A stretch of DNA of 58,566 bases from an uncultured Bacteroidales bacterium (GTDB taxonomy: Bacteria > Bacteroidota > Bacteroidia > Bacteroidales > Bacteroidaceae). Below the pieces are notes generated by a model. The model was not told the origin of the DNA, made no database searches, and saw only the letters and a list, made by a program, of their open reading frames with translations. The translations under genes and the position numbers were made by a program. Location: positions 1 through 58,566 of the forward strand of contig CACWTU010000013.1 in assembly GCA_902763885.1 (NCBI GenBank), given 5' to 3'. Shown here piece after piece: positions 12,945 through 58,566 of the stretch (position 1 is its first letter; each line of letters opens with the position of its first letter).

Positions 12945-13018
12945 GGTACCTTGACCGAGCGGCTAGGTATCGGTCTGCAAAACCGAGTACGGCGGTTCGA
13001 GTCCGCCAGGTACCTCCA
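12945..13018 (+). tRNA. tRNA-Cys (anticodon GCA), CCA encoded
   Basis: The acceptor arms GGTACCT (12945-12951) and AGGTACC (13008-13014) pair. The anticodon stem CGGT/ACCG holds the loop CTGCAAA with anticodon GCA at 12977-12979. The T arm is GGCGG-TTCGAGT-CCGCC. A discriminator T (13015) is followed by an encoded CCA (13016-13018). A transcription terminator follows within five bases. Confidence 0.96.
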
Positions 13019-21574: not shown

Positions 21575-21578
21575 TTCC

Positions 21579-21615
21579 AAGGGGCACAAAGGGGACGGTT
21601 CTTTTTGTGCCCCTT
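21579..21615. repeat. REP-like hairpin, GGGGACGGTTCTTTTTG family, copy 1
   Basis: The ends AAGGGGCACAAA and TTTTTGTGCCCCTT pair as a hairpin around GGGGACGGTTC. The reverse complement of the same unit lies at 21915-21949, so the two form an inverted pair around element copy C. This family type is widespread as REP/REPIN repeats moved by Y1 tyrosine (RAYT) transposases in other bacteria. Confidence 0.82.
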
Positions 21616-21637
21616 CTGATAATAATCCAAGGTGCAC

Positions 21638-21905
21638 AGAACTTTTGGGGTATCGGTATGGGAGCTTCCCATTTGCAGGAGCAGAACTATCAGTTTTGGG
21701 AGCGTCAGTGAAGAGGCGTAAGTGGAGGGCCTTGGAGGATCCCGTTAAGAACGGCGCTTCGTTTAACGACGGTTAGACACCGAAGGTGGCTAAGACGGAG
21801 GCGTTCGCCGTTTAGGGTCCGGAGAGGTCCGGAATAGCCTCGGAACGTCGTCTCCCAAAACTGATAGTTCTGCGGTGTTTCAGATACTGATACCCCAAAA
21901 GTTCT
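21638..21905. repeat. Intergenic inverted-repeat element, copy C (268 bp, different interior)
   Basis: It shares the AGAACTTTTGGGGTATCGG and inverted right end with copies A and B, but the inside is different. A second, perfect 20-base inverted repeat lies within (21683-21702 with 21852-21871; core CTATCAGTTTTGGG). It encloses several smaller hairpins, for example CACC-GAA-GGTG inside GGTTAG/CTAAG, GGCG-TT-CGCC, and a GTTAA/TTAAC stem. The rest of the gap between the convergent genes purM and the permease gene is filled by this element and the flanking REP pair. Confidence 0.85.
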
Positions 21906-21914
21906 CTAAAAAAT

Positions 21915-21949
21915 AGGGGCACAAAAAGAACCGTCCCCTTTGTGCCCCT
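21915..21949. repeat. REP-like hairpin, GGGGACGGTTCTTTTTG family, copy 2 (inverted)
   Basis: AGGGGCACAAAAAGAACC...GTGCCCCT is the reverse complement of the unit at 21579. It ends seven bases from the stop of the permease gene at 21956. Confidence 0.82.
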
Positions 21950-21955
21950 TTGGTG

Positions 21956-22672
21956 CTAGCCCAGGAACTTGCCGCGGTTCTGCAGGCCTAGCAGGCCTGA
22001 CATCAGGAAGATGATGCCGGCCACTACCATGAGGATGCGGTTCTTGAGCAGGATTACGCTCCAGATAGCTGCATTGATGTTCTCCGGCTCCTCATACGGG
22101 TTGATGGTGAAATCCCATACCTTGTTTTCAATAGTTGGAAGACTTCCCAATATCATTGCCAGTATGACAGTAAGTACGGAGAGTACGGCAGCGGCGTTTC
22201 CGTTGCGAATCAGCGTGGAGTACAGGAATGCCAGATTACCGAACAGCATGACCGGAATCATGAGCTGAGCCGCCATAACGAACGGCTGCACCGGATAGAG
22301 CAGAATCCTGGCCATGAAAGCATATACCACAAGAATTAGATATACCTCCACATATATCATCACCAGGCGGAACAGCCATACCTTGTACATGTAGTTTGGT
22401 ATGCCGAACAGGAGTTCCAGGATACGGTGATCAGCATCATTCTGAATTCCGAAACATGCCGGATAGAACACCAGCAACAGGCCCGGTATTGTAAGCTGGC
22501 TGTAAACCATGCTATGACTCAACTCCGTGCCTCTGGATGCTGCTGAGAACATGAGGAAGAAAAACAGGGCCAGACCCACCAGCAGGAACCAGATGAACTT
22601 GCCGGAAAATATGATCCTCATATTGTAACCGCACAACTTACCGAAAGATTTAACTGTATCTAATGCTGACAT
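21956..22672 (-). CDS. ABC-2 type permease subunit
   Basis: This 238-residue membrane protein has about six hydrophobic helices and no ATPase motif. The N-terminal region (LCGYNMRIIFSGKFIWFLLVGLALFFFL) and the block ADHRILELLFGIPNYMYKVWLFRLVMIYVEVYLILV resemble short ABC-2 permeases. It is the last gene of the seven-gene transporter operon, 15 bases after the RND-ABC fusion gene, so the ATPase domain of that fusion is its likely partner. The substrate is unknown. Its function rests on topology and context, not on a sharp motif. Confidence 0.75.
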   Translation of the reverse strand: MSALDTVKSFGKLCGYNMRIIFSGKFIWFLLVGLALFFFLMFSAASRGTELSHSMVYSQLTIPGLLLVFYPACFGIQNDADHRILELLFGIPNYMYKVWLFRLVMIYVEVYLILVVYAFMARILLYPVQPFVMAAQLMIPVMLFGNLAFLYSTLIRNGNAAAVLSVLTVILAMILGSLPTIENKVWDFTINPYEEPENINAAIWSVILLKNRILMVVAGIIFLMSGLLGLQNRGKFLG

Positions 22673-22687
22673 AGTTCAAATTCCATT

Positions 22688-25600
22688 TTAAAGGTTTTTC
22701 AATAAGCATAGGTATGCATCCTCAAGGTTAGGCTCAGCAAGCTCTGCACCAGGCCAGGGGCACACAGGCGATATGTAACGCACCTTGATCTTGTCACCAT
22801 CCTGGATATGATTAGCAATAAGCTTCTCATCCAGTTCAGCTAAGCGTGATGCCTCAATGTCAAACAGCCATACCTTGTCCTTAGCCAGATTTATCATCTC
22901 AGAAGGCAAGCCAAAATACTTGAGCGAGCCCTTCTCAATGACCACAACCTGGTTACATGAGCTGGCAATATCCTCAATGATATGGGTAGAGAATATCACT
23001 ATACGGTCACGGCTCAACTCAACCAGCAGGTTACGGAACCTGATGCGTTCTCTTGGATCAAGACCTGCTGTAGGCTCATCGACCACAAGGATCCGCGGCA
23101 GGTTAAGCAGGATGAGTGCAATACCTATTCGCTGCTTCATACCGCCTGAGAATGAACCAATCTCAGAGTTACGCTGCTCATACATATGTACTGATGTAAG
23201 CACGTACTCCAGTCTCTCACGGCGCGTTTTCTCATCAGTAATACCCTTAAGGATAGCCTGATAGTTGAGGAAATCCCACGCGCTCATGGACTCATACATA
23301 CCGAACTCCTGAGGCAGGAATCCGATAAGGCTCTGCAACTCCTCCCTGTACTTGAGGGTATCCATGCCGTTGATGAACACCGTTCCGTAGCTTTGGCGCA
23401 GGATACCGGTAACTATGCGCATGAACGTGGATTTACCGGCTCCATTGGGGCCAAGCAGTCCGAACATACCGCTATGAATCTCAAACGTGACGCCACGCAG
23501 AGCCTTGAACGGTTTCTTGCGTTTGCCGATGATAGGAATGCTCTTAACGAACACGAACCAAGCCCGACGCATTCCGGCGGTCTCACCCTTAAGACGCTCC
23601 ACGTTTATATTGTTTGCATAAAGATAGTCTGATGTCTTGCGGATGCAGAGTCCAAGAATCCAGACAACCGCAATGAACACCATGAATCCCTTGCTCTCAA
23701 TCTTGTGACTGAGGAATATCATTGCACATATCGGCAATGCCCAGTAGAGAATCTTCTTTATAATTAATACTGCTCTTGCTCCACTCTTGAACTTGTATCC
23801 AATATACTCCAGAACAGCCTTAAGTATATTGTTTATGCCAGCCAGCGTAATGATGGTCATAAGCAGTATCCAGAACTCCTTCTCAAAGTACCATCCGGCC
23901 AGATATCCTGTGTATCCGAACACTACCACCTGCCATATCAGACTCACAAAATCCTTTGCGTGATGGAAACTGCGTGAAAGCCCTAACCTGCGGCGTATGT
24001 TCAGTCCGCTACGCCACTGGCGCAGGAACAGGCTGTACCAGTCATATACCTTGACAAGGTTACGCACCTCAATGACAATAGGCTCATTCTCCTTTACGAT
24101 ATCCTTACGTGCTATCCTTACAGAGCTCTTTATGAAATATGTCACTCCAGGAATGGCAACAGACAGAATGATTATATAAAGAAGTATCATGAACACTCCG
24201 TCCACACTTGTAAAGATCACTATCAGACCCACAATGAACAATATGGCATGCAGGATATGGGTATAGCGGCCCAAGCCCTTATACCAGGCCCTCATATTCT
24301 CAAATGATATGTAGAGCGTAGGTATGAGCAGCAGGGTAAGTATGGCAGAGAACGTGAGTCCGCCTATTACGGTCAGCGCAAAAGGAGCACCTATGGCACC
24401 GGCGTACTCATCATCACCCATAGCCATAGGTATAAGCGTGACGATTGTGGTTATGGTAGTTATGCAGATTGGCCTGAGACGTGAATAACCGCTGGTCATG
24501 ATAGCCCTCATACGGCCATAGCCTCTGCGACGTAATGTAGATGAATAGTCTATCAGGATAATACCGTTGTTAACCACAATACCCAACAGAATAAGGAATC
24601 CCGTCAGGGTATTGGCATTCATCAGGCTGTTACCTGACAGCAACAGTGCCAGCAATGACCCTATGGCGGCCAGCGGTATGGAGAACAGCAGTACCAGAGG
24701 TGTGGTAAGTGACTCAAAGGCCGATGCCAGTATCATGAATATCAGTATTATCGATGCCAGAATCAGGAACTTGAACTCACTGGTAGAGTCATCACCGCGC
24801 TGAACCTCAAGAGCCAAGCCTGAAGGCAGGTTGTAATTGGCTATCAGGTCATCAATCTGGTCATGATAATCATCAAGCACATCTTTAGGCAGATCCTCAC
24901 TCTGCGAAATGGCGTATGTTACATTTACACGGCGGTCACGGTTAACACGCCTTACTTCTGACGGGCCACGGCTCAGACGTATGCTTGCTATCTGCTGGAG
25001 CTCATGAGTACCGCCGTTTGCATCAGTAACGATGACACGACGAAGGTCATCCATGGTTTTTTCCCAACGCTGCATCTCCTCCTCTTCCTCAGTGATGTCA
25101 TCCATTATGACAATGTCATATTCATCAGTACCTACCTTGAAGCTTGCACCAGTACTGGTGGAACGGTTCAGGGAACCCAGAGCCTGGGTGATTGCCTGAT
25201 TGGTGATATTGTAAGATGCCAACGCTACAGGATCAAAGGTAAGCTGTACCTCACGACGTCCACCGGGATTGTCAACCCTAACGTCACGAACAAACTCCAA
25301 CTGTTCCAGATAATACCTGAGGTTATTGGAAACCACACGCATGGTCTCGGTATCAGAACCCTTGACAACTATTCTCTCCGTATTGTCACCCACGCCCAGA
25401 ACGCTCATGAAACGTGTCAGTGAACTGAGTCCTGATGCACTCTGGTTTCCACGGGCATAGCCTGGAGTAACACGCACGTCTATATCGCCATCAAGAGTAA
25501 GCTCATCACTCAGCTGTTCAACAAGTTGGCTTATGGTTACACCACCCTTTTTGTTATAACCATCCTGTAGAGTCAGGGTAATTGAGGCCTGATCTTCCTG

Positions 25601-27385
25601 AATGCGGCTTATCACATCCTTTTTCTGAGGCAGGCTATCCAGACGTGACTCAAGAGTTGCCGTAGCCTCATCGGTATCATCAAGAGTGCTGCCGCTTGGC
25701 ATGGTGATGTTGATATTGATTCTGTCACTGTCCACCTGACGGTTCTGACCGGTATTACGCGACAGGGCGAATATGAATGCAATTACCAGAACGGCTACCG
25801 CAGTGCCGACCGTTGGTCCGGGCTTGCGCAGACAGGTCTTGAGCAGTGTTGAATACATCTGCAACGGACGGTCATGAATGGACATCTTACGGAAGAAGAC
25901 GCTGTTGCCGCCTCCGCCGCGTTCCATCATGGCAGCAGTTGCCATGGGTATGAACGTTACAGCCACCAAGAGTGAGAATATCAGCGTAGAGATGATCGAG
26001 AAGCCTATGTTCCTGCCCAATAGTTTGATCATCGGCTCATCAGAGAACACAAACGGCAGGAAAACCGTTATGGTGGTGAGCGTAGATGCCAAGAGCGCCT
26101 TACGCACCTCCTTTACGCCCTGCATGGCCGCCAATCGAGGCGGCATTCCCATGGAAGCCAGACGGTATATGTTCTCCAGCACCACTATACTGCTGTCCAA
26201 CAACATACCTATAGCCAAGGCCATACCTATAAGGGTAAGGGTATTTATGGAAATGTCCGCAGCATAGAATACATTGAATGCCGATAATATTGAGACAGGT
26301 ATTGACAGTGCTATAAAGAACACCAAGCTCAGGTTGCGCAGGAAGAACCACAACACAAGAATGGCCAGCACGCCACCCATCAAAGCCAATTTGACTATCT
26401 GTGATATGTTGTTGCTTATCTGGTCTGCCGAGTTTGACTGCACCACAAGCTGCAAATCCTGGTTGGCCACTTCACGGTTTATCTCATCAATACGCTTAAG
26501 GGCTCTATTGGAGAGTTCAAGAAGATTCTCGCCGGCACTATTGACCAAAGATACGGAGATGGCATCCATACCGTTCACACGGCTTATGGTAGTCTCTTCC
26601 TTATAGTCAAAGAACACCGTGGCCACATTCTTAAGGTATACAGGTCCATTGGCAACCACCAGGTTCTCCACCTGTGACACATCATCATAGTTGGCGTCAA
26701 GCTGCACATAGTATTTTTTGTCAGGCTCGCTTATAAAGCCCAGGAAAGTACGCTCCTGATTATACTGGCTCAATGCCTGGCTTATCTGTGCATTTGATAT
26801 GTGCAATGCCTGCATAGCCTCCGGGTTGGAGCGTATCTCTATGGATTTGACACGACCACCATAAACAGTTACACCTGCTATGCCGTCTATACTCTCCAAA
26901 CGAGGTACCACATCCTTGTCAACGATGGCTCTCAGACGGTCAACACCACCTGATCCGCGCACCTGCAGTGACATGAACTGGTTACTTATGCCATTGAGGT
27001 TAGCCTGCTGGACATTCACCGTGACATCCGATGGGAAATCGCCCCGTATGGAGCTTATCTTCTCCTGCAGTTTCACGGTGGTCATCTTGAGATTGGTGCC
27101 TCTCTTGAAATCAACCCTGATGGAACCCTGTCGGCCCGATACCGTTGATTCCATGTTCTCCACACCACCTACAGCGCTTATGGCTCCTTCAAGCGGGATT
27201 ACCACCTGCTGCTCCATATAGGCCGGAGTGAGGTCACTTCGGGACGAGGCGGTAATATAAAGCTGAGGCAACTCAGTATTGGGCAGCAACTCAACCGGCA
27301 ACTGCTTGTACGAGAAATAGCCCAGCAGCGTGAGCGCCACCAGAAGCATGCAGATAGTTACCCTTCTGTCAATAAATGACTTCAT
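22688..27385 (-). CDS. RND pump fused to extra membrane domain and ABC ATPase (1,565 residues)
   Basis: Residues 1-1030 are a full RND efflux pump of the AcrB/MdtC class: MKSFIDRRVTICMLLVALTLLGYFSYKQLPVELLPN, two large periplasmic loops, and TM4 GMALAIGMLLDSSIVVLEN (single Asp near 395). After the RND end (LLIPTLYISFENMRAWYK) come two helices to about 1085. The first strand of an ABC ATPase follows (EPIVIEVRNLVKVYDW, about 1098-1113), then an inserted block of about 175 residues with four helices, then the rest of the ATPase from KPFKALRGVTFE (about 1288). All motifs are intact: Walker A GPNGAGKST about 1311, Q-loop LPQEFG, signature FSGGMKQR about 1409, Walker B ILVVDEPTAGLD about 1429, H-loop STHIIED. 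The extra helices are even in number, so the ATPase stays in the cytoplasm. No stop or shift divides the parts. It overlaps the upstream RND gene by one base. Confidence 0.93.
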   Translation of the reverse strand: MKSFIDRRVTICMLLVALTLLGYFSYKQLPVELLPNTELPQLYITASSRSDLTPAYMEQQVVIPLEGAISAVGGVENMESTVSGRQGSIRVDFKRGTNLKMTTVKLQEKISSIRGDFPSDVTVNVQQANLNGISNQFMSLQVRGSGGVDRLRAIVDKDVVPRLESIDGIAGVTVYGGRVKSIEIRSNPEAMQALHISNAQISQALSQYNQERTFLGFISEPDKKYYVQLDANYDDVSQVENLVVANGPVYLKNVATVFFDYKEETTISRVNGMDAISVSLVNSAGENLLELSNRALKRIDEINREVANQDLQLVVQSNSADQISNNISQIVKLALMGGVLAILVLWFFLRNLSLVFFIALSIPVSILSAFNVFYAADISINTLTLIGMALAIGMLLDSSIVVLENIYRLASMGMPPRLAAMQGVKEVRKALLASTLTTITVFLPFVFSDEPMIKLLGRNIGFSIISTLIFSLLVAVTFIPMATAAMMERGGGGNSVFFRKMSIHDRPLQMYSTLLKTCLRKPGPTVGTAVAVLVIAFIFALSRNTGQNRQVDSDRININITMPSGSTLDDTDEATATLESRLDSLPQKKDVISRIQEDQASITLTLQDGYNKKGGVTISQLVEQLSDELTLDGDIDVRVTPGYARGNQSASGLSSLTRFMSVLGVGDNTERIVVKGSDTETMRVVSNNLRYYLEQLEFVRDVRVDNPGGRREVQLTFDPVALASYNITNQAITQALGSLNRSTSTGASFKVGTDEYDIVIMDDITEEEEEMQRWEKTMDDLRRVIVTDANGGTHELQQIASIRLSRGPSEVRRVNRDRRVNVTYAISQSEDLPKDVLDDYHDQIDDLIANYNLPSGLALEVQRGDDSTSEFKFLILASIILIFMILASAFESLTTPLVLLFSIPLAAIGSLLALLLSGNSLMNANTLTGFLILLGIVVNNGIILIDYSSTLRRRGYGRMRAIMTSGYSRLRPICITTITTIVTLIPMAMGDDEYAGAIGAPFALTVIGGLTFSAILTLLLIPTLYISFENMRAWYKGLGRYTHILHAILFIVGLIVIFTSVDGVFMILLYIIILSVAIPGVTYFIKSSVRIARKDIVKENEPIVIEVRNLVKVYDWYSLFLRQWRSGLNIRRRLGLSRSFHHAKDFVSLIWQVVVFGYTGYLAGWYFEKEFWILLMTIITLAGINNILKAVLEYIGYKFKSGARAVLIIKKILYWALPICAMIFLSHKIESKGFMVFIAVVWILGLCIRKTSDYLYANNINVERLKGETAGMRRAWFVFVKSIPIIGKRKKPFKALRGVTFEIHSGMFGLLGPNGAGKSTFMRIVTGILRQSYGTVFINGMDTLKYREELQSLIGFLPQEFGMYESMSAWDFLNYQAILKGITDEKTRRERLEYVLTSVHMYEQRNSEIGSFSGGMKQRIGIALILLNLPRILVVDEPTAGLDPRERIRFRNLLVELSRDRIVIFSTHIIEDIASSCNQVVVIEKGSLKYFGLPSEMINLAKDKVWLFDIEASRLAELDEKLIANHIQDGDKIKVRYISPVCPWPGAELAEPNLEDAYLCLLKNL

Positions 27386-30300
27386 TACTTTCCAGTGATT
27401 CTTATTTTGGCGCTTTCAAATACATAATAAACACAAGGTATCACAACCAGACTCAAAAGAGTTGAAGTGAGAAGACCGCCTATCACGGCAATTGCCATAG
27501 GTGAACTCAGTGATGCGCCATCACCCAGTCCGAGTGCCATTGGCACAAGTGCCAGGATTGTGGTAAGACTGGTCATCAGGATAGGACGGATACGCTGCTG
27601 CCCTGCCTCTGCTATGGCATCGGTAAGGCTCAGACCTGACTCCTTGAGCTGTCCTATACGGTCCACCAGGATGATGGAGTTGTTTACCGCGATACCGGCC
27701 AGCATCACCATACCTATGATACCCATGATATTCACCGTTATACCTGTGATGAGGAACATCAGTACCGCGCCCACCAAAGCCAGAGGAATGGTAAGGAGGA
27801 TGGTAAACGGATGCAGTAGTGATTCAAACTGCGATGCCATGACCATATATACCAGCACGATAGAGAGCACGAGTGCCAACAGTAGGCTGTTCATGGACTC
27901 TGCTCGGCGCTCCTCCTCACCTGTCACGTTAATGGAGTAGTTCTGCGGCAGTTCTATTCCTGATACGGCGTCTCTTACTCTCTGAGCAGCTTTATCAAGT
28001 GATACTGACTCATCGATATCGGCCGTAACGCGTGTCACACGGTTCTGATTGAGACGATAAATCTCCTTTGGTGCAGTACTCTCACTTATCTGGGCCAGCT
28101 CAACAAGACGGAAATCCTTCTGGCCCGATGTTATGACCATACTGTTAAGGTCTGCCAGAGACACGCCCGGAACCTTGATGCTGATATCTCTCATATCACC
28201 CTTGTAGTCCATCTGTCCGGCTTCACGACCGGCCAAGTGCTGCTGTATCTGTGTGATTATGGTTGATACGTTTATGTTGTTCATACCGGCCAGGGCACGG
28301 TCAACCGTGATGATGATTTCAGGTGCACCGCCAGCCAGCGAGCTCTCAACATTATACAGGCAGTCAATTGAGTCAACGGCGGCTTTAACCTGATCTGTCA
28401 GTGAAGCCAGCAGATCCAGATCCTCACCCTTTATCTCAACTACCAGAGGAGCATCTTCAGTACCCATCAGTGAACCCAGCGAGTTGTCATCCTGAGTAAA
28501 TGAAAGTTCCATACCCTCAACGCCGTCTATATAGGCAGACAGCACCTCCGTAAGATAATCAGGAGAAACTGCTGACGCGTTTGAGAGCTGGATCTTCATG
28601 GTGGCGGTATTCTCACCCTCAAAATCCATATTCTGGGCCGATGCACCCGGTCCCACATGAGTGTATATCACACATTCTGGATCCTCAGACAGGTCAAACA
28701 CCAGATTCTCCAGGTTCTCAAGCGTAGATGACGTACGGTCCAGACTTGTACCCTCAGCCATGCGGATCTTCACGTTTATGGTATTGGCATCAGTCTTGGG
28801 CATGAACTCGGTACCCACATAAGGCAACAGGAATATGGTTCCTGCCACTAGGATTACTGAGCATAATATCACCCACCAACGCTTCTCCACCAGTTTCTTA
28901 AGGAATGAGGAGTAACCCTTTATGTTTACTGAACTGAAGTTCTTGAGCGGAGCTACCTTCTTACGGCCAAATATACGCTCATACAGCGTAGGTATCACCA
29001 GTATAGCCACAAACAGTGATGAGAGAAGTGAGAACGTAACAGTCCACGCCTCATCCTTGAACAGTTCACCTGTGGCGCCATGCAGATAGACTATAGGCAG
29101 GAAAACCACAATCGTAGTCAGGGTTGATGCAGATACGGCACCGCCCACCTCAGATGTACCTGTAATTGCGGCGTCACGCACTGATAGGCCGCGTTCCTGA
29201 TTCCTGAATATACTCTCGATAACCACAATGGCATTATCCACCAGCATACCTGCTCCAAGCGCAAGACCTCCCAACGTAAGTATGTTAATGGTAAGTCCGC
29301 TAAAGAACATCAGGTTGAAAGTGGCTATTATGGAAACAGGTATTGAAACGGCCACGATAAGGGTTGTCCCCACCCTGCGCAGGAACACGAACAGTACTAT
29401 CACCGCCAGCAGGATACCCAGCATGGCGCTGTTCTTGACCTCACCTATTGAATCGTTAATGAAAGTGGCCTGGTCACTTATTATCCTGAAATCATATCCG
29501 GGCAGCGACTTCTGTATCTTGGTAAGACTGGTCTTTATACCTTCTACAGCCTTTACAGTGTTGTAATCCATCTCCTTGAATACAGAGATGCCAATACTGC
29601 GGTTGCCGTTCACCCTTACTATGTTCTCCGGTTCACGGTTCTCAAAGTGTATGGTTGCCACGTCACGCAGGTAGATAGGTGCCATGCTTGCCGATGCAAA
29701 CTCACCCACCTGCTGTGCTCCCGGCTGTGCAGACTCTGTATTCTTGTATCCTACTATGATATTACCGAATGCAGTCTCATCAGTCAGCGTATTTGAACCG
29801 GTCACAAGATACTGGTAACCCTGTTCCGTTATCCTTCCGCCCGATACCCTCTGGTTGTTCTCCTGGATACGTGACGATATGTTTTCAACAGTTATGCCAA
29901 AAGCCTGCAGTTTGTAAGGATCAGCCTCTATCACCAGGTTGGTAAACTCATCGCCTGCCAGTGACACATCAGCCACACCCTCAACCCTCATCAGTTCATT
30001 GCACACATATGAGTCAGCCACCTTGCGGAGCTCGGCCATATCGGTGATATCAGGATTGGAGAAACCTATTATCATTATGGGAGCAGTAGTAGGATCCTTC
30101 TGGGATATCCTGAGGTCTGTCACACGGCTGTCCTGAGAGAAACTGCTCATGGCCTTCTCCAGATCCAGGAACGCCTCATCCATATTCTTTCTCCATGCGT
30201 ACTCTACCGTCAGTCTGGCTGTACCCACCTTAACTACCGATGATACATTGCGCACGTCACTCTGACGGGCAATCTGAGATTCCATGCTGCGCACGAACTG

Positions 30301-30486
30301 TTTCTCAATCTCTTCTGGCGGACGCTCGCCAGCGTCTATCTCAACAAACAGGCGGGGGCTGTTCATGCTTGGAAGCAGCTCCACGCTCAGCCTGTCATAT
30401 GATATCTTTCCGAGCAGCAGAATAGCCAGCACCGCCATAGTGACAGTGACCGGATTCCTGACCGCCCAACTAACCAGTCTTTTCAT
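27385..30486 (-). CDS. RND efflux pump, permease subunit
   Basis: A 1,033-residue RND transporter of normal length. The start MKRLVSWAVRNPVTVTMAVLAILLLGKISYDRLSVELLPS is the usual first helix. Two periplasmic porter regions lie between helices 1-2 and 7-8. TM4 reads GGLALGAGMLVDNAIVVIES with one proton-relay Asp near 415 in place of the AcrB pair. The C-terminal half ends MAIAVIGGLLTSTLLSLVVIPCVYYVFES. With the following fusion gene it forms a two-pump pair, as in MdtB/MdtC, so a mixed trimer is possible. Located 13 bases after the adaptor gene. Confidence 0.95.
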   Translation of the reverse strand: MKRLVSWAVRNPVTVTMAVLAILLLGKISYDRLSVELLPSMNSPRLFVEIDAGERPPEEIEKQFVRSMESQIARQSDVRNVSSVVKVGTARLTVEYAWRKNMDEAFLDLEKAMSSFSQDSRVTDLRISQKDPTTAPIMIIGFSNPDITDMAELRKVADSYVCNELMRVEGVADVSLAGDEFTNLVIEADPYKLQAFGITVENISSRIQENNQRVSGGRITEQGYQYLVTGSNTLTDETAFGNIIVGYKNTESAQPGAQQVGEFASASMAPIYLRDVATIHFENREPENIVRVNGNRSIGISVFKEMDYNTVKAVEGIKTSLTKIQKSLPGYDFRIISDQATFINDSIGEVKNSAMLGILLAVIVLFVFLRRVGTTLIVAVSIPVSIIATFNLMFFSGLTINILTLGGLALGAGMLVDNAIVVIESIFRNQERGLSVRDAAITGTSEVGGAVSASTLTTIVVFLPIVYLHGATGELFKDEAWTVTFSLLSSLFVAILVIPTLYERIFGRKKVAPLKNFSSVNIKGYSSFLKKLVEKRWWVILCSVILVAGTIFLLPYVGTEFMPKTDANTINVKIRMAEGTSLDRTSSTLENLENLVFDLSEDPECVIYTHVGPGASAQNMDFEGENTATMKIQLSNASAVSPDYLTEVLSAYIDGVEGMELSFTQDDNSLGSLMGTEDAPLVVEIKGEDLDLLASLTDQVKAAVDSIDCLYNVESSLAGGAPEIIITVDRALAGMNNINVSTIITQIQQHLAGREAGQMDYKGDMRDISIKVPGVSLADLNSMVITSGQKDFRLVELAQISESTAPKEIYRLNQNRVTRVTADIDESVSLDKAAQRVRDAVSGIELPQNYSINVTGEEERRAESMNSLLLALVLSIVLVYMVMASQFESLLHPFTILLTIPLALVGAVLMFLITGITVNIMGIIGMVMLAGIAVNNSIILVDRIGQLKESGLSLTDAIAEAGQQRIRPILMTSLTTILALVPMALGLGDGASLSSPMAIAVIGGLLTSTLLSLVVIPCVYYVFESAKIRITGK

Positions 30487-30499
30487 CCTTTTCTCTGTG

Positions 30500-31570
30500 T
30501 TATCTTTGGATCTTAACCTTTGAACCGTCTCTCAGGGTCTCAAAACCGCGTACAATCAGCTGATCGTCCTTATCAAGGCCACTCAGAACCTCTACGCTGT
30601 TCTTCTCTTCCAATCCCAGCCTTACCTGCTTTGCAACGGCTATACCCTGGTCAACCACAAACACAGTACGTCTGTTACGCTCGTTACGTACAATGTTCTT
30701 GGGTATCACGATAGTGGAGCTGTGGCTCTCAGTAACGATATCGGCCTTTACGAACATACCCGGTCTGATGAGCAGCTTGCTATTATCAATCATAAGCTTG
30801 CCTTTGAATGTACGGGTCTCGGCACTGATAGCCGGAGAAAGCTCTGTAATCTCACCCATGATAGTATCCTTAGGCAGAGTATAATGAGTGATGTAAGCCT
30901 TCTGGCCCACTTTCACCTCATTGATGGCACTCTCAGGCAGGTTGATCTCAAGCAGCATGGAGCTGTAATCCATGATGGTCACCACTGATGTACCGCTGTT
31001 AACCTTGGCCTCCTTTGAGTAATGCGGAAGATTCACTATCACGCCGTCAAACGGAGCACGGATGTTCATCTTCTCAAGATTCATCTGGGCATTCTCATAG
31101 TCCAGACGTGAATTCATGATCTTGATATCCGAGTTCTTGACCTCAGTAAGCGTGGCACCACCCTTGTCATACAGGGACTTGGTCTTGACCTGCTCCTGCT
31201 CAGCCAGCTCCAGGTTCAGACGCTTGGTCTCTATTGATATGCCGTTCTCATATGACTTATCCTCAATACGTACTATCAAGGCGCCTTTCTTGACCTTGTC
31301 ACCCAGTTTGTAGGGTTTACCGGTGGCGGGGTTGTTCTGGAGATGATACTTGCCGGCCATCTCAGTTGACAGTTCAGCCTCGGCACTTGACACAGCCGTG
31401 CTGTTTGTGGTAAAGATCCTGCTTACGGATCCGTAGGTAATGTCAGATACAGATACCGGTGTGGGTATCTCATTACGGTTCATAGTGTTCTCTTGCCTGC
31501 ACCCTGCCATAAGGAGTGTGAGTGCACTCAGTGTAAGTACGCTGATTCCTGATTTCATATGCTGTTTCAT
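30500..31570 (-). CDS. Periplasmic adaptor (membrane fusion) lipoprotein
   Basis: A 356-residue HlyD/AcrA-type adaptor. The signal ends in LMAGC, so Cys 24 should be lipidated. It has a biotinyl/lipoyl-like half (LGDKVKKGALIVRIEDKSY...NIRAPFDGVIVNLPHYSKEAKVNSGTSVVTI), an alpha-helical hairpin (NGISIETKRLNLELAEQEQVKTKSLYDKGGAT), a beta-barrel (VGQKAYITHYTLPKDTIMGEITELSPA) and a membrane-proximal domain. The adaptor joins the inner-membrane pump to the TolC-type channel encoded just upstream (5-base gap). An alternative start four codons in is possible. Confidence 0.94.
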   Translation of the reverse strand: MKQHMKSGISVLTLSALTLLMAGCRQENTMNRNEIPTPVSVSDITYGSVSRIFTTNSTAVSSAEAELSTEMAGKYHLQNNPATGKPYKLGDKVKKGALIVRIEDKSYENGISIETKRLNLELAEQEQVKTKSLYDKGGATLTEVKNSDIKIMNSRLDYENAQMNLEKMNIRAPFDGVIVNLPHYSKEAKVNSGTSVVTIMDYSSMLLEINLPESAINEVKVGQKAYITHYTLPKDTIMGEITELSPAISAETRTFKGKLMIDNSKLLIRPGMFVKADIVTESHSSTIVIPKNIVRNERNRRTVFVVDQGIAVAKQVRLGLEEKNSVEVLSGLDKDDQLIVRGFETLRDGSKVKIQR

Positions 31571-31575
31571 TTTTA

Positions 31576-33078
31576 TTATTTCTTTTTGTCGTTATTCTGT
31601 TCATATGTCATGGGAGCCACCGGCTCATCCTTCTCAAAATCATACAGTGTCAGTATCTTGAGATTAAGAAGCTGAACCTTGTAGTTAATGATAGCCTGTG
31701 TGTATGACATCTTGCTGTTGGAAAGCTGAGTCTGGAACTGGTTCATCTGCATACCAGTAAGCTCACCGTTACGGTAACGCTCCTCATTGAGGTCATAGGT
31801 AAGCTGTGCGTTCTTCTGGCTCTGCTCTGCTATGGATATCTGTCCCAGCAGGTTATCCAGGCTACGGCATGTGCTGCGTACGTTCATCTCTATGCTCTTA
31901 AGCTCCTCCTCGGCACTAAGCTCAAACATCTTGCGTTCTATCTCAGCGGCCTTGATACGTGCCTTACGTGCGCCCCAGTCAAAGATAGGTACGCTGAATG
32001 AGATAGCTATACGCGGGTTGTTGGTGGGATTGTCATAAACATGGTTGAAATCCTCGCTATCACCCATGATACCCAATGAGAGTGAGATATTTCCGTTAAA
32101 GCTGTCATTATCCTTGACCTGCACCATAGACATCTCCTGCTGTTCACGCGATATCTGGCGCTGACGCAACTCCAGTCTGGTGGTTGTGGCGCTCTCAAGA
32201 GCCTTGTTGATATCCACATATACCGGATCAGCCTCGATATCGCATACCACGATGATATCCTCCTCAAGAGGTATGCCAAGCGCCTGCTTGAAATTATCCT
32301 TGGCATTCTCAAGGCTTACCCTCTGGTTCTCCAGGCTTGAACGTGACTGGGCCAGGTTGAGTTCTGCCTGATAGTACTCATCCTTGGTCACAAGGTCAGC
32401 CTCAACCTTATCCTTTATTATATTGAAGTTCTTCTCTGCATTCTCCAGCTCCGACTCACTTATTGCAAGGTTCTGCTGTGATACGAACAGGCTGTAGAAC
32501 TGACTTGTTATGTTACGCTCCACATTCAGCATCTGCAAAGCATAACTTATGCGGGCATTCTCATAATTCATCTCTATCTGACGCATATTCATCTTAGTCT
32601 TGTTGTAAGTGAATATCGGCTGCGTCAGACTCAGGTAAAGACGGTTACTGAATGCACGGTTGCTGTTAGTATTACCTCCTATTGACGATTCATTGTTCTG
32701 CCATGACAGGCTGTTGTTGAGTGACAGCGTGGCATCGGTCCAGATAATAGGCTGTGATATACTGAATGTTCCCGATGATGACAGCGAGCGGTTGGTGTAC
32801 CAGTCTGAGTAACGGCTGTCAAACTGACGGGACTGCGAGTAAGAGAGAGGCTCCAGGTTAAGTGAGAATCTGGACTTGAGTGATGCCTTCTGGGCTATCA
32901 GGTTCTGCTCATACCGCTCCATACTCATACGGGAGTTTATCAGATCGGGATTATGTTGGGCACTGTACTCAAGAGCCTGCTCCATGGTCATGACAATCTG
33001 CGCCTGCGCTCCGGTCTCTATGGCCGAGGCGGCTGCAAGCACAAGAACTGCCTTCTTTAAAAAATCTCTTTTTATCAT
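31576..33078 (-). CDS. TolC-family outer-membrane channel
   Basis: A 500-residue outer-membrane factor with a signal peptide (KKAVLVLAAASAIETGAQA) and two repeated halves. Each begins with a coiled-coil pattern: MTMEQALEYSAQHNPDLINSRMSMERYEQN and later the AELNLAQSRSSLENQRVSLENAKDNFKQALG block. The ends have RNGELTGMQMNQFQTQLSNSKMSYTQAIINYKVQLLNL. It forms the exit duct for the pump. The gene is the third of the transporter operon, 20 bases after the permease fusion. Confidence 0.94.
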   Translation of the reverse strand: MIKRDFLKKAVLVLAAASAIETGAQAQIVMTMEQALEYSAQHNPDLINSRMSMERYEQNLIAQKASLKSRFSLNLEPLSYSQSRQFDSRYSDWYTNRSLSSSGTFSISQPIIWTDATLSLNNSLSWQNNESSIGGNTNSNRAFSNRLYLSLTQPIFTYNKTKMNMRQIEMNYENARISYALQMLNVERNITSQFYSLFVSQQNLAISESELENAEKNFNIIKDKVEADLVTKDEYYQAELNLAQSRSSLENQRVSLENAKDNFKQALGIPLEEDIIVVCDIEADPVYVDINKALESATTTRLELRQRQISREQQEMSMVQVKDNDSFNGNISLSLGIMGDSEDFNHVYDNPTNNPRIAISFSVPIFDWGARKARIKAAEIERKMFELSAEEELKSIEMNVRSTCRSLDNLLGQISIAEQSQKNAQLTYDLNEERYRNGELTGMQMNQFQTQLSNSKMSYTQAIINYKVQLLNLKILTLYDFEKDEPVAPMTYEQNNDKKK

Positions 33079-33098
33079 ATTCTTATCTGTTATTTCGC

Positions 33099-36000
33099 TT
33101 AACGGGAATTTTCTCTCTTAACCAACTTGACGGCATCAGCCACAATCACGTTTACGCCTGATTTGTTGTTCAGCGTAACCTTCACTGTATCCGCCTCAAA
33201 ACGGAACGTACCCAAAAGATTCCATCCCTCATCGGCACGCCACATGTTCATTGAGACACGGTCACTTGAGTTGAACTGCCCTATCTCAAAGTTATAGTCA
33301 TTGGTAACCCTGCGGCCATTGTTGTTATTGTTATTATTGTTGTTCCACCTACGGTTACGATTATTGTCGTTAGACATATCCGGAGACGCGTAGTAATATA
33401 CGTCATAGACTCCGGCAACAGTCAAAGGAATTTTCCATCGTGCATACTGGGAGCCGTCACCCGGGGATATGATATATGCCGAGCGTATATAATCACCGTA
33501 CAGGTTCTGGTCTGTCACCAGCGTCCACTGGCTGTATGTACGCCAATCGGAGAAGCCCTCATATATGAACTCATTGTTTTTCTCCCTGGACTTGTCTATC
33601 CATTTTGACAGATAACCGGTCCTGAGAGGTCTTGAAAGGGAGAACAGTTCACTGTCCTCATTATCCACGATTATCTCACCCGGAAGCGCGTTATCCACTC
33701 CGCCGTTAACAGTATAGACTCCCTCGGGAGTGAGTTCCGTACCGGTATATGTACTCCAGTCTGCACTGTTAAGAGTCACATCATGCGGCAGGTTTGATGA
33801 GAGCATGGTGTTTACCCTTATTAAGCCGGGAGTATTGAACCAGTGAGTCACAAGCCTGTGTGTCTCATGGGCACCTACGCTCATGGTCATGCTTGTGGGT
33901 TTGTCTTCATCACCGGCGTTCTCAATCTCATAGAATACGAACTCCACATTGACGTAACCAGGATTGTCCGATATATTCTCAAACGCTATCTCAGCCTGAT
34001 AAATATCAGCTGTATCAGTAGTGACAGTTGTAATCTGCGGAGTACCTACCTTGAAGCAAGCCAACCGTGCCGGCTGGTTCCAACTCTCAATCTTATCTGT
34101 CAGGTCAACACCTGAGTAGCTCTGCACCCAGTCCAGGATTGAATCAAATGATGAATTGGTAAACTCTTTTGCTCTGCTCCAGGCGGTAATAGAGTCAACC
34201 ATGGCCTCATAACCCATTGCAGCCGATACCGGAGCAAAGAAATCTCTTGTCTTGAGTGCCAATGCATTATCAGCCAGGTCCTCCCACTCCGGGTCTGACA
34301 TGACACGGTCAAAACCGTACTTTCCCATCAGTATCAGAGCCTTCTCATCCTCTGACAGGCCGTTCATTCTCCTCATCCATTCCGATGTTCCTGATCCGGT
34401 CGAGTTAGTTACAGTCTCAACCATACGGTTTGCCATAGGCCAATTGGACGAGTAGATGTTATACCTGAAATTGTAGAACAACGGTCCATAATAGTAAGGA
34501 TTATCTACCTGTGTCATGCTGAACTGTCCGTTACGGTTGCTGCCGCTGAAACTGTTGGACTGCATCATGAATGACATGGCACTGTAAAGGACGTTGTAAA
34601 GGATCTCCTTCTCAGACATATCGGTATTACGGCGGTTAAAACGTCCGCCACCATACATACGCTTCATATTCTCAAACTGGAATTGACGCATGTCATAGCC
34701 TCGCTCATGAATCAGTGCCATCTCCGGCTGCAGATTCTCATAAACCGATGTCCACACACGCTTGTATGAGGTGAAATGGGCCGGTACCTCAACTATATTG
34801 AAACGTTTGAACGGATAAGCCATATCAGCAGTATATTCCATGTTACGGCGTATGCCACGTAATACGACAGGTATAGTATCACTGATGGAATCAAACGTCT
34901 CAAACATATCATTCCAGTGTCCAAGCTCCCAAACGGTATAGACGGTTGAGTCAACCGTTATGGACTTGGGGGTGTAATCTCCTATTATAAGCGATACTGA
35001 CGGTAATGATGACTCCGGCGTGAATGTGTATGTGGTAGAGTCGGCATTTACCATGCACATACCCTGTGATATAGGTGTCAGACCGGGATTAGGCGTCACG
35101 CTGACATTGAAATCAGTAAAGTATGACATCTGCCATTCTGGACTCTGGTCACTGTATGCCACGCCGGGACGCGGATACCAGTAACTCTCAGGCGTAAGCA
35201 TGGTAAACTCTTTGTCCTGGAACAGATAACGCTTGCCTACGTTAAGCATGGAAAGAACCTTACTGTTCTCAATCAGCTTGTCTGCCTGGATATCCAGATA
35301 ACAGATGCGCTCATCGGCCTTACCGCTGTACTCAATGACAATTATTACAGGTTCATCGGCATGCAGGTTATCCTCAAATTTAAGGATGACAAGATGCATA
35401 AGCCTCTCATAACTGATTTTATGTCCGGCAGCACTTACGCTTGTAATATTGAAACCTGGATTGAGAGTGAACACCAACTGTGTGTCATCCTGACGGGGAG
35501 AGACGGTCATATCAGCTCTAACACTGAGAGAATCACCGCTTTGGGTTACGGTAAGTTCACATGACTGGGCCACAGCACTGCCCACATTTACGAACCTGTT
35601 ATTCAGCTCCACCATATCGGCCCTGAATATCTCATCTACCTTGTAAAGATGTACATGCCTATATCCGGCATAAAGGCCTCCGGCAAGGAACAGCACCGCA
35701 GCTATGCGCCAAGGCAACAGGCTGTAGCGGGAGTTGGCAAGACGATGGAACAGCGATACATCCGTAAGTATGAGCCCTATGCCAAGCAACAGATAGCACA
35801 ACCTGTGATTTATCAGCCTGCCCAGTCCGCTGAAGCCCGTTATCATAGACTTGAGCATAGGCAGATTGAAACCTATGTAATCAAAGAGATAATAGTACAG
35901 ATTATCTATATAAAACAGCGTCACGCCTATATACGCAAGCAGGATAACCATCGTAATGGCCTGGTTGTTGAGTATAAGCATCAAGGTGGTTGACAGACCT

Positions 36001-36485
36001 ACTATAAACACCAGGGTAGGAACTGACAACAGCAGGAAATACCATATATAACTCAGATAGTCCAGTGCAAAGCCGTACTTGACAAGACTCATTACCAATG
36101 CTATTGCCGCTACTATCAGATCAAGTATGAAGAACACCTTGAGTGTAGCCCACATCTTACCAAGCAGATACTCGGCATTACTCAGAGGACGGGTGTAGAA
36201 TACTTCTGATGTATCAAGCTGTTTGTCACGTTTAAGATACTCCGATGCCAGGAAAACCGACACCACGGCCTGCCCCACATTCATGATAAGCATGAACATG
36301 TATGGGATGACCGACCTGTTGATCATCTGGGGTTGCGGGAACTGTGTGAGTATGTAGATGGAACCCAAAATCAACGCCGCAAGGAGTGACAGGAAGGCAA
36401 ACACCTTGAAGAACCAGCCACGTACAAGCAGTTTTGTCTCGTACTTGGAGACTATGCGTATGTTATATAATCCAAGCATCATCAC
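33099..36485 (-). CDS. ABC permease fused to inactive M1-type peptidase fold and golvesin-like tail
   Basis: Residues 1-270 are an ABC-2 permease with about seven helices (YETKLLVRGWFFKVFAFLSLLAALILGS, TSEVFYTRPLSNAEYLLGKMWATLKVFFILDL). From about 290 a long periplasmic part has the order of an M1 aminopeptidase (beta-domain, then FTMLTPESYWYPRPGVAYSD and FKRFNIVEVPAHFTSYKRVW). The zinc motif HExxH is replaced by HERGY near 590 (MALIHERGYDMRQF), so the second zinc His is lost and peptidase activity is unlikely. The last 160 residues are a golvesin-like beta domain (YARWKIPLTVAGVYDVYYYAS, WNLLGTFRFEADTVKVTL, ADAVKLVKR). A nine-Asn run lies near 1042. The gene overlaps the ATPase gene by four bases. 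Confidence 0.85.
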   Translation of the reverse strand: MMMLGLYNIRIVSKYETKLLVRGWFFKVFAFLSLLAALILGSIYILTQFPQPQMINRSVIPYMFMLIMNVGQAVVSVFLASEYLKRDKQLDTSEVFYTRPLSNAEYLLGKMWATLKVFFILDLIVAAIALVMSLVKYGFALDYLSYIWYFLLLSVPTLVFIVGLSTTLMLILNNQAITMVILLAYIGVTLFYIDNLYYYLFDYIGFNLPMLKSMITGFSGLGRLINHRLCYLLLGIGLILTDVSLFHRLANSRYSLLPWRIAAVLFLAGGLYAGYRHVHLYKVDEIFRADMVELNNRFVNVGSAVAQSCELTVTQSGDSLSVRADMTVSPRQDDTQLVFTLNPGFNITSVSAAGHKISYERLMHLVILKFEDNLHADEPVIIVIEYSGKADERICYLDIQADKLIENSKVLSMLNVGKRYLFQDKEFTMLTPESYWYPRPGVAYSDQSPEWQMSYFTDFNVSVTPNPGLTPISQGMCMVNADSTTYTFTPESSLPSVSLIIGDYTPKSITVDSTVYTVWELGHWNDMFETFDSISDTIPVVLRGIRRNMEYTADMAYPFKRFNIVEVPAHFTSYKRVWTSVYENLQPEMALIHERGYDMRQFQFENMKRMYGGGRFNRRNTDMSEKEILYNVLYSAMSFMMQSNSFSGSNRNGQFSMTQVDNPYYYGPLFYNFRYNIYSSNWPMANRMVETVTNSTGSGTSEWMRRMNGLSEDEKALILMGKYGFDRVMSDPEWEDLADNALALKTRDFFAPVSAAMGYEAMVDSITAWSRAKEFTNSSFDSILDWVQSYSGVDLTDKIESWNQPARLACFKVGTPQITTVTTDTADIYQAEIAFENISDNPGYVNVEFVFYEIENAGDEDKPTSMTMSVGAHETHRLVTHWFNTPGLIRVNTMLSSNLPHDVTLNSADWSTYTGTELTPEGVYTVNGGVDNALPGEIIVDNEDSELFSLSRPLRTGYLSKWIDKSREKNNEFIYEGFSDWRTYSQWTLVTDQNLYGDYIRSAYIISPGDGSQYARWKIPLTVAGVYDVYYYASPDMSNDNNRNRRWNNNNNNNNNGRRVTNDYNFEIGQFNSSDRVSMNMWRADEGWNLLGTFRFEADTVKVTLNNKSGVNVIVADAVKLVKRENSR

Positions 36486-37363
36486 TCCTTATCCCTGATT
36501 TCAGTAAAATATACATATGCATGCTCCAGATTTGGAGGATAACTCACTGCACCATAACCGGGTGATTCCTTGGCCACCACCTGCAGATCCCATCCCAAAC
36601 CATGCGGTATGGTTGAAATCACTGCGTATTTCTGGTTTATCTCAGCATACTGTTCATTGGTTACCTGCATGCGCCACACCTTACCCTCAGTCTCCTTGAG
36701 CATTCCGGCAGGTGACCCTCTGAACATGACCTGGCCCTGATTGAGCATGGCCATCTCCGTACATGAACTTGAGATATCACCTACTATATGTGTTGACAGG
36801 ATTATCGTGGTGTCCTTTGAGCTGGCCTCACTAAGCAGGTTACGGAACCTGATGCGCTCCTCCGGGTCAAGTCCTGTAGTAGGCTCATCCACCACCAGGA
36901 TCTGAGGCTTGTGTATGAGAGCCTGTGCAATACCCAGACGTCTCTTCATACCACCCGACAGATTCTGTGCATAACGGTCACGTGCTTCATAAAGCCCCAC
37001 CTGCTCCAGCATGGCGTCAACAGCCTTGCCGCGCTCTGAAGAATTAGTCATACCCGTAAGTGCAGCAGCATACTCCAGGAATTCACGCACCTTGTACTTG
37101 GCAAAGAAACGGAAATCCTGTGGCAGATAACCCAATATGCGTCTCACCTCCTTGCGTTGCGTGCGTATATCATATCCGCACACATCAATCTGCCCCTCCG
37201 TGGGTTCCATCAACGTAACCAGAATACGCATCAGAGTGGATTTTCCGGCACCGTTCGGTCCCAAAAGGCCGAACATGCCTGAAGGTATCTCCAGGTTAAT
37301 ATCGGTCAGCGCTCTCTTGCCGTTAGGGTAATAATGGCTTAAGCCTTTTATAGATATAGACAT
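36482..37363 (-). CDS. ABC transporter ATPase subunit
   Basis: A 293-residue ABC ATPase, first gene of the operon. Walker A is GPNGAGKST near residue 37, Q-loop LPQDFR near 87, signature LSGGMKRR near 138, Walker B ILVVDEPTTGLD near 158 and H-loop STHIVGD. It resembles the ATPase half of the fusion protein further down the operon (both have SGMFGLLGPNGAGKS and EERIRFRNLL or RERIRFRNLL), so the two probably arose by duplication. A C-terminal extension of about 80 residues ends NLEHAYVYFTEIR, like NLEDAYLCLL in the fusion. It should power the permease encoded next. Confidence 0.94.
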   Translation of the reverse strand: MSISIKGLSHYYPNGKRALTDINLEIPSGMFGLLGPNGAGKSTLMRILVTLMEPTEGQIDVCGYDIRTQRKEVRRILGYLPQDFRFFAKYKVREFLEYAAALTGMTNSSERGKAVDAMLEQVGLYEARDRYAQNLSGGMKRRLGIAQALIHKPQILVVDEPTTGLDPEERIRFRNLLSEASSKDTTIILSTHIVGDISSSCTEMAMLNQGQVMFRGSPAGMLKETEGKVWRMQVTNEQYAEINQKYAVISTIPHGLGWDLQVVAKESPGYGAVSYPPNLEHAYVYFTEIRDKE

Positions 37364-37381: not shown

Positions 37382-37389
37382 CAAAAGTA
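37382..37389 (-). promoter_or_regulatory. -7 box for the transporter operon
   Basis: The minus strand reads TACTTTTG, a perfect TAnnTTTG, 19 bases before the ATG at 37363. A TTTG lies 23 bases upstream. The operon therefore has its own promoter after the GH9 gene. Confidence 0.6.
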
Positions 37390-58238: not shown

Positions 58239-58243
58239 GAAAA

Positions 58244-58348
<105 letters not shown>

Positions 58349-58419
58349 AAAACGATTTGCTAATCTATTACCACTTGGATTATCTACTCTCTAGCGTCAC
58401 TTTCACAAGTCTTTTTGAC

Positions 58420-58566
58420 TTAAGGAAAAATTCGGGCAATTAGTACTGCTCGGCTTTGACGTCACCGCCTTTACACCTGCAGCCTATCAACGTCGTAGTC
58501 TACAACGACCCTCAAAGGAAATCTAATCTTGCGGCCGGCTTCGCACTTAGATGCATTCAGCGCTTA
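58420..58566 (-). rRNA. rrl: 23S ribosomal RNA, 3' end (continues beyond the window)
   Basis: On the minus strand from the right edge the bases match the 23S 3' region (GAATGCATCTAAGTGCGAAG, then GTGTAAAGGCGGTGACGTC and TACTAATTGCCCGAA). The exact 3' end is approximate. A spacer of about 70 bases separates it from 5S. Confidence 0.93.

Follow-up and report, generated by a model that had tools for sequence, protein, structure and literature searches.

Can an ATP-driven exporter and a proton-driven pump be parts of one and the same machine? Tripartite exporters are described, in the available part of the source, with an ATP-binding cassette (ABC), a resistance-nodulation-division (RND) or a major facilitator superfamily (MFS) transporter as the energised part (PMC8277102). 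The question is raised by a seven-gene operon on contig CACWTU010000013.1 of an uncultured Bacteroidales bacterium (assembly GCA_902763885.1), whose 58,566 nucleotides are referred to here as the window. Gene 6 of this operon encodes an RND pump joined to an ABC ATPase, and beside it lie genes for a second RND pump, an adaptor, an outer-membrane channel and what may be the rest of an ABC exporter. Two machines that are normally studied as alternatives thus appear wired into one exporter. With a probability of roughly 0.55, we read the operon as encoding a tripartite exporter of an amphiphile that draws on two energy sources and in which a covalent link would tether the ABC half to the RND trimer.

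The seven-gene unit and its distribution

Seven open reading frames (ORFs) on the minus strand span positions 21956-37363 of the window. In order of transcription, the distances between them are -4, 20, 5, 13, -1 and 15 nucleotides (nt), which bears out the compact cluster, with neighbours that overlap slightly or lie no more than 20 nt apart, that a sequence-only reading had described. The window proteins 1 to 7 match, in Pfam and NCBIfam, ABC_tran; Golvesin_C only; OEP; HlyD/RND_mfp; ACR_tran; ACR_tran and ABC_tran; and no family, respectively. Sizes are given below in amino acids (aa).

37382..37389, minus strand: putative -7 promoter element TACTTTTG (TAnnTTTG), 18 nt upstream of the gene 1 start codon
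36482..37363, minus strand: gene 1, free ABC ATPase, 293 aa (ABC_tran; motifs conserved in 56/56 orthologues)
33099..36485, minus strand: gene 2, ABC-2-like transmembrane domain (TMD) with degenerate M1-aminopeptidase-like ectodomain and Golvesin_C, 1128 aa, GTG start as called
31576..33078, minus strand: gene 3, TolC-type outer-membrane channel, 500 aa (PF02321 OEP, 1.5e-48)
30500..31570, minus strand: gene 4, periplasmic adaptor, RND_mfp, 356 aa, lipoprotein by its lipobox with Cys24 (TIGR01730 above cutoff)
27385..30486, minus strand: gene 5, RND pump, 1033 aa (PF00873, 1.5e-215, residues 5-1023)
22688..27385, minus strand: gene 6, RND pump fused to ABC ATPase, 1565 aa (one open frame, the same in relatives)
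21956..22672, minus strand: gene 7, small permease with several transmembrane helices, 238 aa (hhalign to TMD1 of stand-alone two-TMD/M1 permeases)

Profiles of the seven proteins, built partly from the surveyed loci themselves, identified 76 loci that hold the fusion, a count that selects on the fusion and in which many loci are contigs of metagenome-assembled genomes (MAGs). Four loci with fragmentary fusions (L065, L066, L118 and L138) were left out, and the loci include duplicate sequences (L068 = L124; L063 = L116). All seven genes are found in 56 of the 76, collinear on one strand in every case, while the remaining 20 are truncated where the contig or the fetched stretch stops. As 56/56 complete loci share one gene order, the seven-gene set is a conserved unit. 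The earlier proposal of a hybrid ABC/RND unit that has a single adaptor and a single channel is thereby upheld, and the opposite picture, with ABC and RND genes usually apart, is not what the complete fusion loci present. Median intergenic gaps in the complete loci run from -1 to 19.5 nt, with single gaps of up to 947 nt.

The fusions fall into 74 clusters at 99.5% identity and 28 at 70%, and identity between full-length pairs goes down to 41%. With the window's own genome counted, which has one fusion copy, long matches to the fusion or to its linker and nucleotide-binding domain (NBD) were found in 26/37 genomes of the genus sample, 40/295 of the order (matches of at least 411 bits; the other matches shown reach at most 249 bits and cover little beyond the NBD), 3/295 of the class and 4/296 of the phylum. 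One of the four phylum-sample carriers belongs to another class. The fusion is no assembly error, since it recurs across the genus, order, class and phylum samples and in copies down to 41% identity. When a genome collection was searched with the fusion, 38 loci were returned, of which two are unrelated ATPases. The other 36 belong to MAGs titled Bacteroidales, Bacteroidaceae or Prevotellaceae, most of them from gut samples, including those of ruminants and horses.

Linkage was also followed from the other genes. The gene 7 profile matches 40/295 order-sample genomes, the same 40 that carry the fusion (listings compared by hand); in one of them (G392) the two lie on separate contigs. For gene 2 the number is 42/295. 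Its carriers that give no long fusion match (G309, G430, G475, G480 and G569) all stop at contig ends (L102, L104, L099, L166 and L165), and three fusion genomes (G306, G555 and G575) give no gene 2 match. Of 20 stretches around operon-like or related ATPases, L114 contains the operon in full, and L099, L102 and L104 contain it truncated at contig ends. In L113, the ATPase and a portion of gene 2 are present, and the fusion of that genome (G374) sits on another contig. No unfused precursor was found among the ATPase-centred stretches and the gene 2 genomes, where fragmented genomes could hide one.

The motif upstream of gene 1 has the form TAnnTTTG, which we take to be the Bacteroidetes -7 consensus. 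It occurs within 100 nt upstream of gene 1 in 8/31 loci, compared to 7/336 starts of the other six genes (0, 1, 1, 2, 1 and 2 of 56 for genes 2 to 7). From this count, a single promoter for all seven genes is only suggested.

An RND pump fused to a split ATPase domain

Both RND proteins have the full-length ACR_tran architecture (PF00873 5-1023 in gene 5 and 2-1028 in gene 6), and MdtB is the best solved-structure match for each. Residues D417, R965 and T972 of gene 5 are invariant (67/67), as are D397, R969 and T976 of gene 6 (66/66); these relay residues stand at the places of D407, R971 and T978 of AcrB. In the adaptor, the lipobox Cys24 is conserved in 66/66 proteins. In a survey covering 6205 RND proteins, the available text counts 203 tandem repeats, every one of them in the MdtBC clade, and puts the identity of heterotrimer partners (Clade B) at about 50% (PMC10872679). 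The operon likewise has tandem RND genes and one adaptor, yet its pair is only 27.8-31.0% identical in 13 loci, and membership among MdtBC-type heterotrimers was rejected against this yardstick of about 50% (PMC10872679, as far as the source is available). The window's own genome also holds a channel-adaptor-RND-RND set (L161:741-9567), a second tandem RND pair with one adaptor, which gives no ABC profile match.

In gene 6, the ACR_tran match (2-1028) is followed by ABC_tran (1296-1440) in a single open frame, and the sequence shows a covalent RND-ABC fusion with the following parts.

24302..27385, minus strand: RND part, residues 1-1028 (PF00873 2-1028)
24122..24268, minus strand: two extra predicted membrane helices after the twelfth RND transmembrane helix (TM12), residues 1040-1088 (AlphaFold2, AF2, helices)
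24041..24079, minus strand: first NBD strand and A-loop, residues 1103-1115 (ATPase N-terminal profile)
23516..24040, minus strand: predicted membrane insert within the NBD, residues 1116-1290, about four helices (AF2 and hydropathy)
22691..23515, minus strand: rest of the NBD, residues 1291-1565, with Walker A, Q-loop, FSGGM, Walker B and H-loop (PF00005; motifs)

The sequence shows an NBD that is split by the membrane insert: its first strand and A-loop come first, about 175 inserted residues with some four membrane helices follow, and the rest of the domain comes after them. The A-loop segment is the top-ranked position of the ATPase N-terminal profile in 66/66 fusions, K1112 and Y1114 within it are invariant (66/66), and VIA-align alignments of the fusion model start at residues 1103-1115. 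The AF2 helices of the insert lie within 1143-1257, and hydropathy in 13 orthologues gives four segments in 11 and three in 2; for the region after RND TM12 (residues 1040-1088) it gives one to three segments in 13 orthologues. NBDs take up the VIA-align matches of the fusion model, which therefore say hardly anything about the fold of the insert itself. To our knowledge, no NBD of the ABCA, LptB2FG or MlaFEDB kind is broken by membrane helices beside the A-loop, and an NBD split in this way would be an unusual ABC domain.

The catalytic motifs of the gene 6 NBD are kept in 66/66 proteins. Gene 1 has canonical Walker A and B motifs, an LSGGM signature and an H-loop, and in 56/56 orthologues the only exchanges are S/T in Walker A and V/I before Walker B. 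Judged by these motifs, both NBDs appear catalytically competent. The solved NBDs nearest to gene 1 by sequence are those of ABCA4, ABCA3 and ABCA1, and the likeness to these lipid transporters is taken as a lead only with respect to the cargo. Matches in PADLOC fall only within the two ATPase domains, and a gliding-motility ATPase of the GldA type was rejected (TIGR03522, 172.9 and 196.8 bits compared to a curated cutoff of 402.6). The gene 6 linker was also considered as a third ABC permease, a reading that found no support, with hhalign probabilities (P) of 1.0 to gene 7, 2.1 to gene 2 and 0.3 to the stand-alone permeases discussed below.

The position of the insert raises the prospect that the NBD pair acts on the RND trimer itself via the inserted membrane bundle, leaving genes 2 and 7 as a scaffold or substrate receptor. 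The insert adjoins the A-loop, which contacts ATP, and RND TM12 is followed by about two additional helices. Being unlike gene 7, gene 2 and the stand-alone permeases, the insert may be a coupling element of its own. However, neither pump has lost any of its relay residues (Asp, Arg and Thr), and genes 2 and 7 resemble the two permease halves of an ABC exporter. We regard an ATP-assisted RND pump of this kind as improbable.

The ABC genes and their stand-alone relatives

What, then, do the permease genes belong to? In 10/10 of the listed flanks, from 15 non-operon stretches (L098, L107, L108, L109 and L111 being outside the listing), a stand-alone ATPase lies beside a permease of about 1200 aa. 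Gene 2 matches these stand-alone permeases at hhalign P 97.4, aligning with residues from about 310 onward, and gene 7 matches their TMD1 (P 66%, E 5.4e-5, columns 90-265). Pfam matches of the gene 2 orthologues are weak, to ABC2_membrane_4 in 16/26 (best E 0.00048) and to Peptidase_M1 in 5/26. FtsX and MacB_PCD are the permease type of the MacB family; no Pfam match to it was found in 20 gene 7 members (E up to 1) or 26 gene 2 members (E up to 0.1). Two domains of gene 2 bear on what follows.

33753..35606, minus strand: M1-like ectodomain, residues 294-911 (no HExxH at the M1 place)
33120..33533, minus strand: Golvesin_C domain, residues 985-1122 (Pfam PF25275; 26/26 members matched)

The ectodomain was assigned to the M1 fold. 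Its HExxH zinc motif is absent from 38/38 gene 2 proteins and from 65/66 in a larger set, in which the single HExxH string (L115, residue 885) is off the M1 place, while the motif is present in 10/10 stand-alone relatives. The operon permease has thus lost the M1 zinc motif. The ABC genes look like one exporter dealt over four polypeptides, kin to the two-gene system of an ATPase and a two-TMD/M1 permease. The sequence-only reading had instead counted two complete ATPases and two ABC-2 permeases, which suggests two ABC systems. The second ATPase is interrupted by the membrane insert, and profile comparison points to one split exporter, with a modest link for gene 7. From the same reading, the M1-like fold fused to a permease stands as a fold, but its zinc motif is lost and the domain is degenerate.

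Gene 2-like permeases with no HExxH flagged and no other operon genes adjoining were seen at L168:8373-11849, L169:10637-14032, L170:6296-9664 and L171:2574-5900. They come from genomes G471, G571, G382 and G583, all of which also carry the fusion; the L170 frame is in two pieces and L171 has two such genes in tandem. Just upstream of stand-alone pairs lie proteins of 224-233 aa with signal-like starts (L095:16441-17115, L097:18222-18896, L100:18280-18981 and L110:4911-5600), possible partners of the stand-alone ATPase/M1-permease system.

A large ectodomain that has no zinc motif and carries Golvesin_C, on a protein whose like exists apart from the operon, could also belong to an envelope-stress or sensing device. 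In such a device, the ABC half with its non-catalytic ectodomain would be a receptor and only the RND half would transport, a role for which BceAB-like modules are a precedent. However, the channel, the adaptor and both pumps are present in 56/56 complete loci, and no shared regulator was recognised by eye in the listed flanks, which are short and were not given a family search. We consider this reading very unlikely.

A proposed exporter and its known counterparts

The dual-energised exporter that we favour would work as follows. The gene 1 ATPase and the gene 6 NBD would form one ATP-hydrolysing pair, and this pair would drive a two-TMD ABC exporter in which gene 7 provides TMD1 and gene 2 provides TMD2 together with the M1-like ectodomain and Golvesin_C. 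That these NBDs and TMDs assemble into one complex is inferred from gene linkage. With one of its NBDs continuous with the gene 6 RND chain, the ABC exporter would be physically bound to the RND pump. The two RND proteins, of genes 5 and 6, probably assemble as a heterotrimer, in which a 2:1 ratio with one gene 6 subunit would give exactly one NBD per free ATPase. The ABC half may lift or flip an amphiphilic substrate out of the inner membrane and hand it to the M1-like ectodomain, a candidate cargo receptor, after which the RND half would push it through the gene 4 lipoprotein adaptor and the gene 3 channel. The joint function of the two halves and their cargo are our inference. More tentatively, and at somewhat less than even odds, this would be one exporter powered simultaneously by ATP, through an ABCA-like pair, and by the proton gradient, through an RND heterotrimer, with the motors mechanically coupled by the split NBD and its insert of about four helices alongside the RND part.

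Several observations weigh against this proposal. The identity of the RND pair (28-31%, compared to about 50% in the available text of PMC10872679) means that heterotrimerisation is not a given, and at the places of AcrB D408 and K940 neither RND protein has Asp or Lys. The gene 7 match to TMD1 is modest (P 66%); gene 7 has no convincing Pfam match among 20 members (E up to 1), its profile gives one chance match to solved structures (E 0.33), and its likeness to gene 2 is undetectable (hhalign P 0.4). The AF2 models of gene 6 and gene 2 are mediocre (predicted local distance difference test, pLDDT, 66.6 and predicted template modelling score, pTM, 0.34; 67.9 and 0.54, respectively). The ABCA likeness says little about the cargo. 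In the genus, 11/37 genomes give no match, most of them incomplete and three of the eight good assemblies among them, and the system is therefore dispensable or was missed there. Finally, the stand-alone ATPases join the fused NBDs before the operon ATPases do in the NBD tree, in which the order of events is left unsettled by a midpoint root with three long outgroups.

The same tree places the fused NBDs in one clade (18 rows, 100/99) and the stand-alone ATPases in another (9 rows, 100/98), and it does not support a recent origin of the fused NBD by copying of the operon ATPase. That it keeps the two NBD kinds apart also suits two separate machines sharing an operon, genes 3-6 for an RND tripartite pump and genes 1, 2 and 7 for an ABC exporter, with the gene 6 NBD as an ATP-sensing regulatory or assembly module and the free ATPase as a homodimer. 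The adaptor scores as RND_mfp, and the free ATPase might indeed homodimerise because the stand-alone pair has one ATPase gene, another point against the pairing of NBDs that we favour. However, the catalytic motifs of the gene 6 NBD are kept in 66/66 proteins, which would be unusual for a mere sensor, the fusion and gene 7 occur in the same 40/295 genomes, and 0/76 fusion loci are without the ABC genes where room existed. We therefore judge separate machines to be unlikely, and the single, covalently linked exporter remains our preferred reading.

Outside the genus, no shared flanking gene was found by eye, in a comparison of ORF starts only and with many loci that have no upstream sequence. 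A GH9/CelD_N gene (window 37444-40086) precedes the operon by 80 nt on the same strand, and in L066, too, a homologue adjoins the operon; most compared loci hold too little upstream sequence to tell how far this linkage extends. Between gene 7 and an AIRS-domain gene lies a 381-bp element (window 21575-21955) with 36-bp perfect inverted ends, resembling a miniature inverted-repeat transposable element (MITE) or repetitive extragenic palindromic (REP) element. The same genome has two more copies of nearly full length (85-86%) and another 111 partial matches, some of which overlap. The window also contains a tRNA-Cys (12945-13018) and, at the contig edge, 5S and the end of 23S rRNA (58242-58566).

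How does the operon compare to known systems? Full-text searching, with subscription papers and preprints outside its reach, returned no recognisable description of an RND-ABC fusion. MdtABC and MuxABC are alike in having two RND genes and one adaptor, and MdtB is the top solved match of both operon RNDs; MdtBC has an MdtB2C1 stoichiometry (PMC7015380, from the text available). Unlike in these systems, the operon pair is 28-31% identical rather than about 50% (PMC10872679, within the accessible portion), one RND carries an ABC ATPase, and the rest of an ABC exporter lies alongside. The stand-alone Bacteroidota ATPase is 40-45% identical to the fused NBD, and its permease has the same TMD2-M1 layout. 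In contrast to the operon, with HExxH lost and TMDs split, this pair has HExxH intact (10/10) and both TMDs in one protein, and no RND or channel profile match was found beside it in the fetched stretches, where one weak adaptor match (L098) was seen.

MacAB-TolC resembles the operon in joining ATP-driven transport to an adaptor and a TolC-type channel. In MacB, however, the NBD is fused to its own permease (PMC8277102, by the part available), whereas the operon has ABC-2-like permeases and an NBD fused to an RND pump. In Porphyromonas gingivalis, also of the Bacteroidales, the adjacent loci PGN_0444-0448 encode a channel and an adaptor together with an ATPase and two ABC permeases, and, unlike the operon, the listing in the available text names neither an RND pump nor a fusion (PMC3764172). 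ABCA lipid transporters, LptB2FG and MlaFEDB are neighbours of the NBDs in sequence or fold, and none of them carries an RND pump. With a conserved RND pump that carries an ABC ATPase with intact motifs, one can test directly whether ATP hydrolysis is coupled to proton-driven export. We regard the operon as a variant of the tripartite exporter; if the dual-motor reading is true, it would represent a new class among transport machines.

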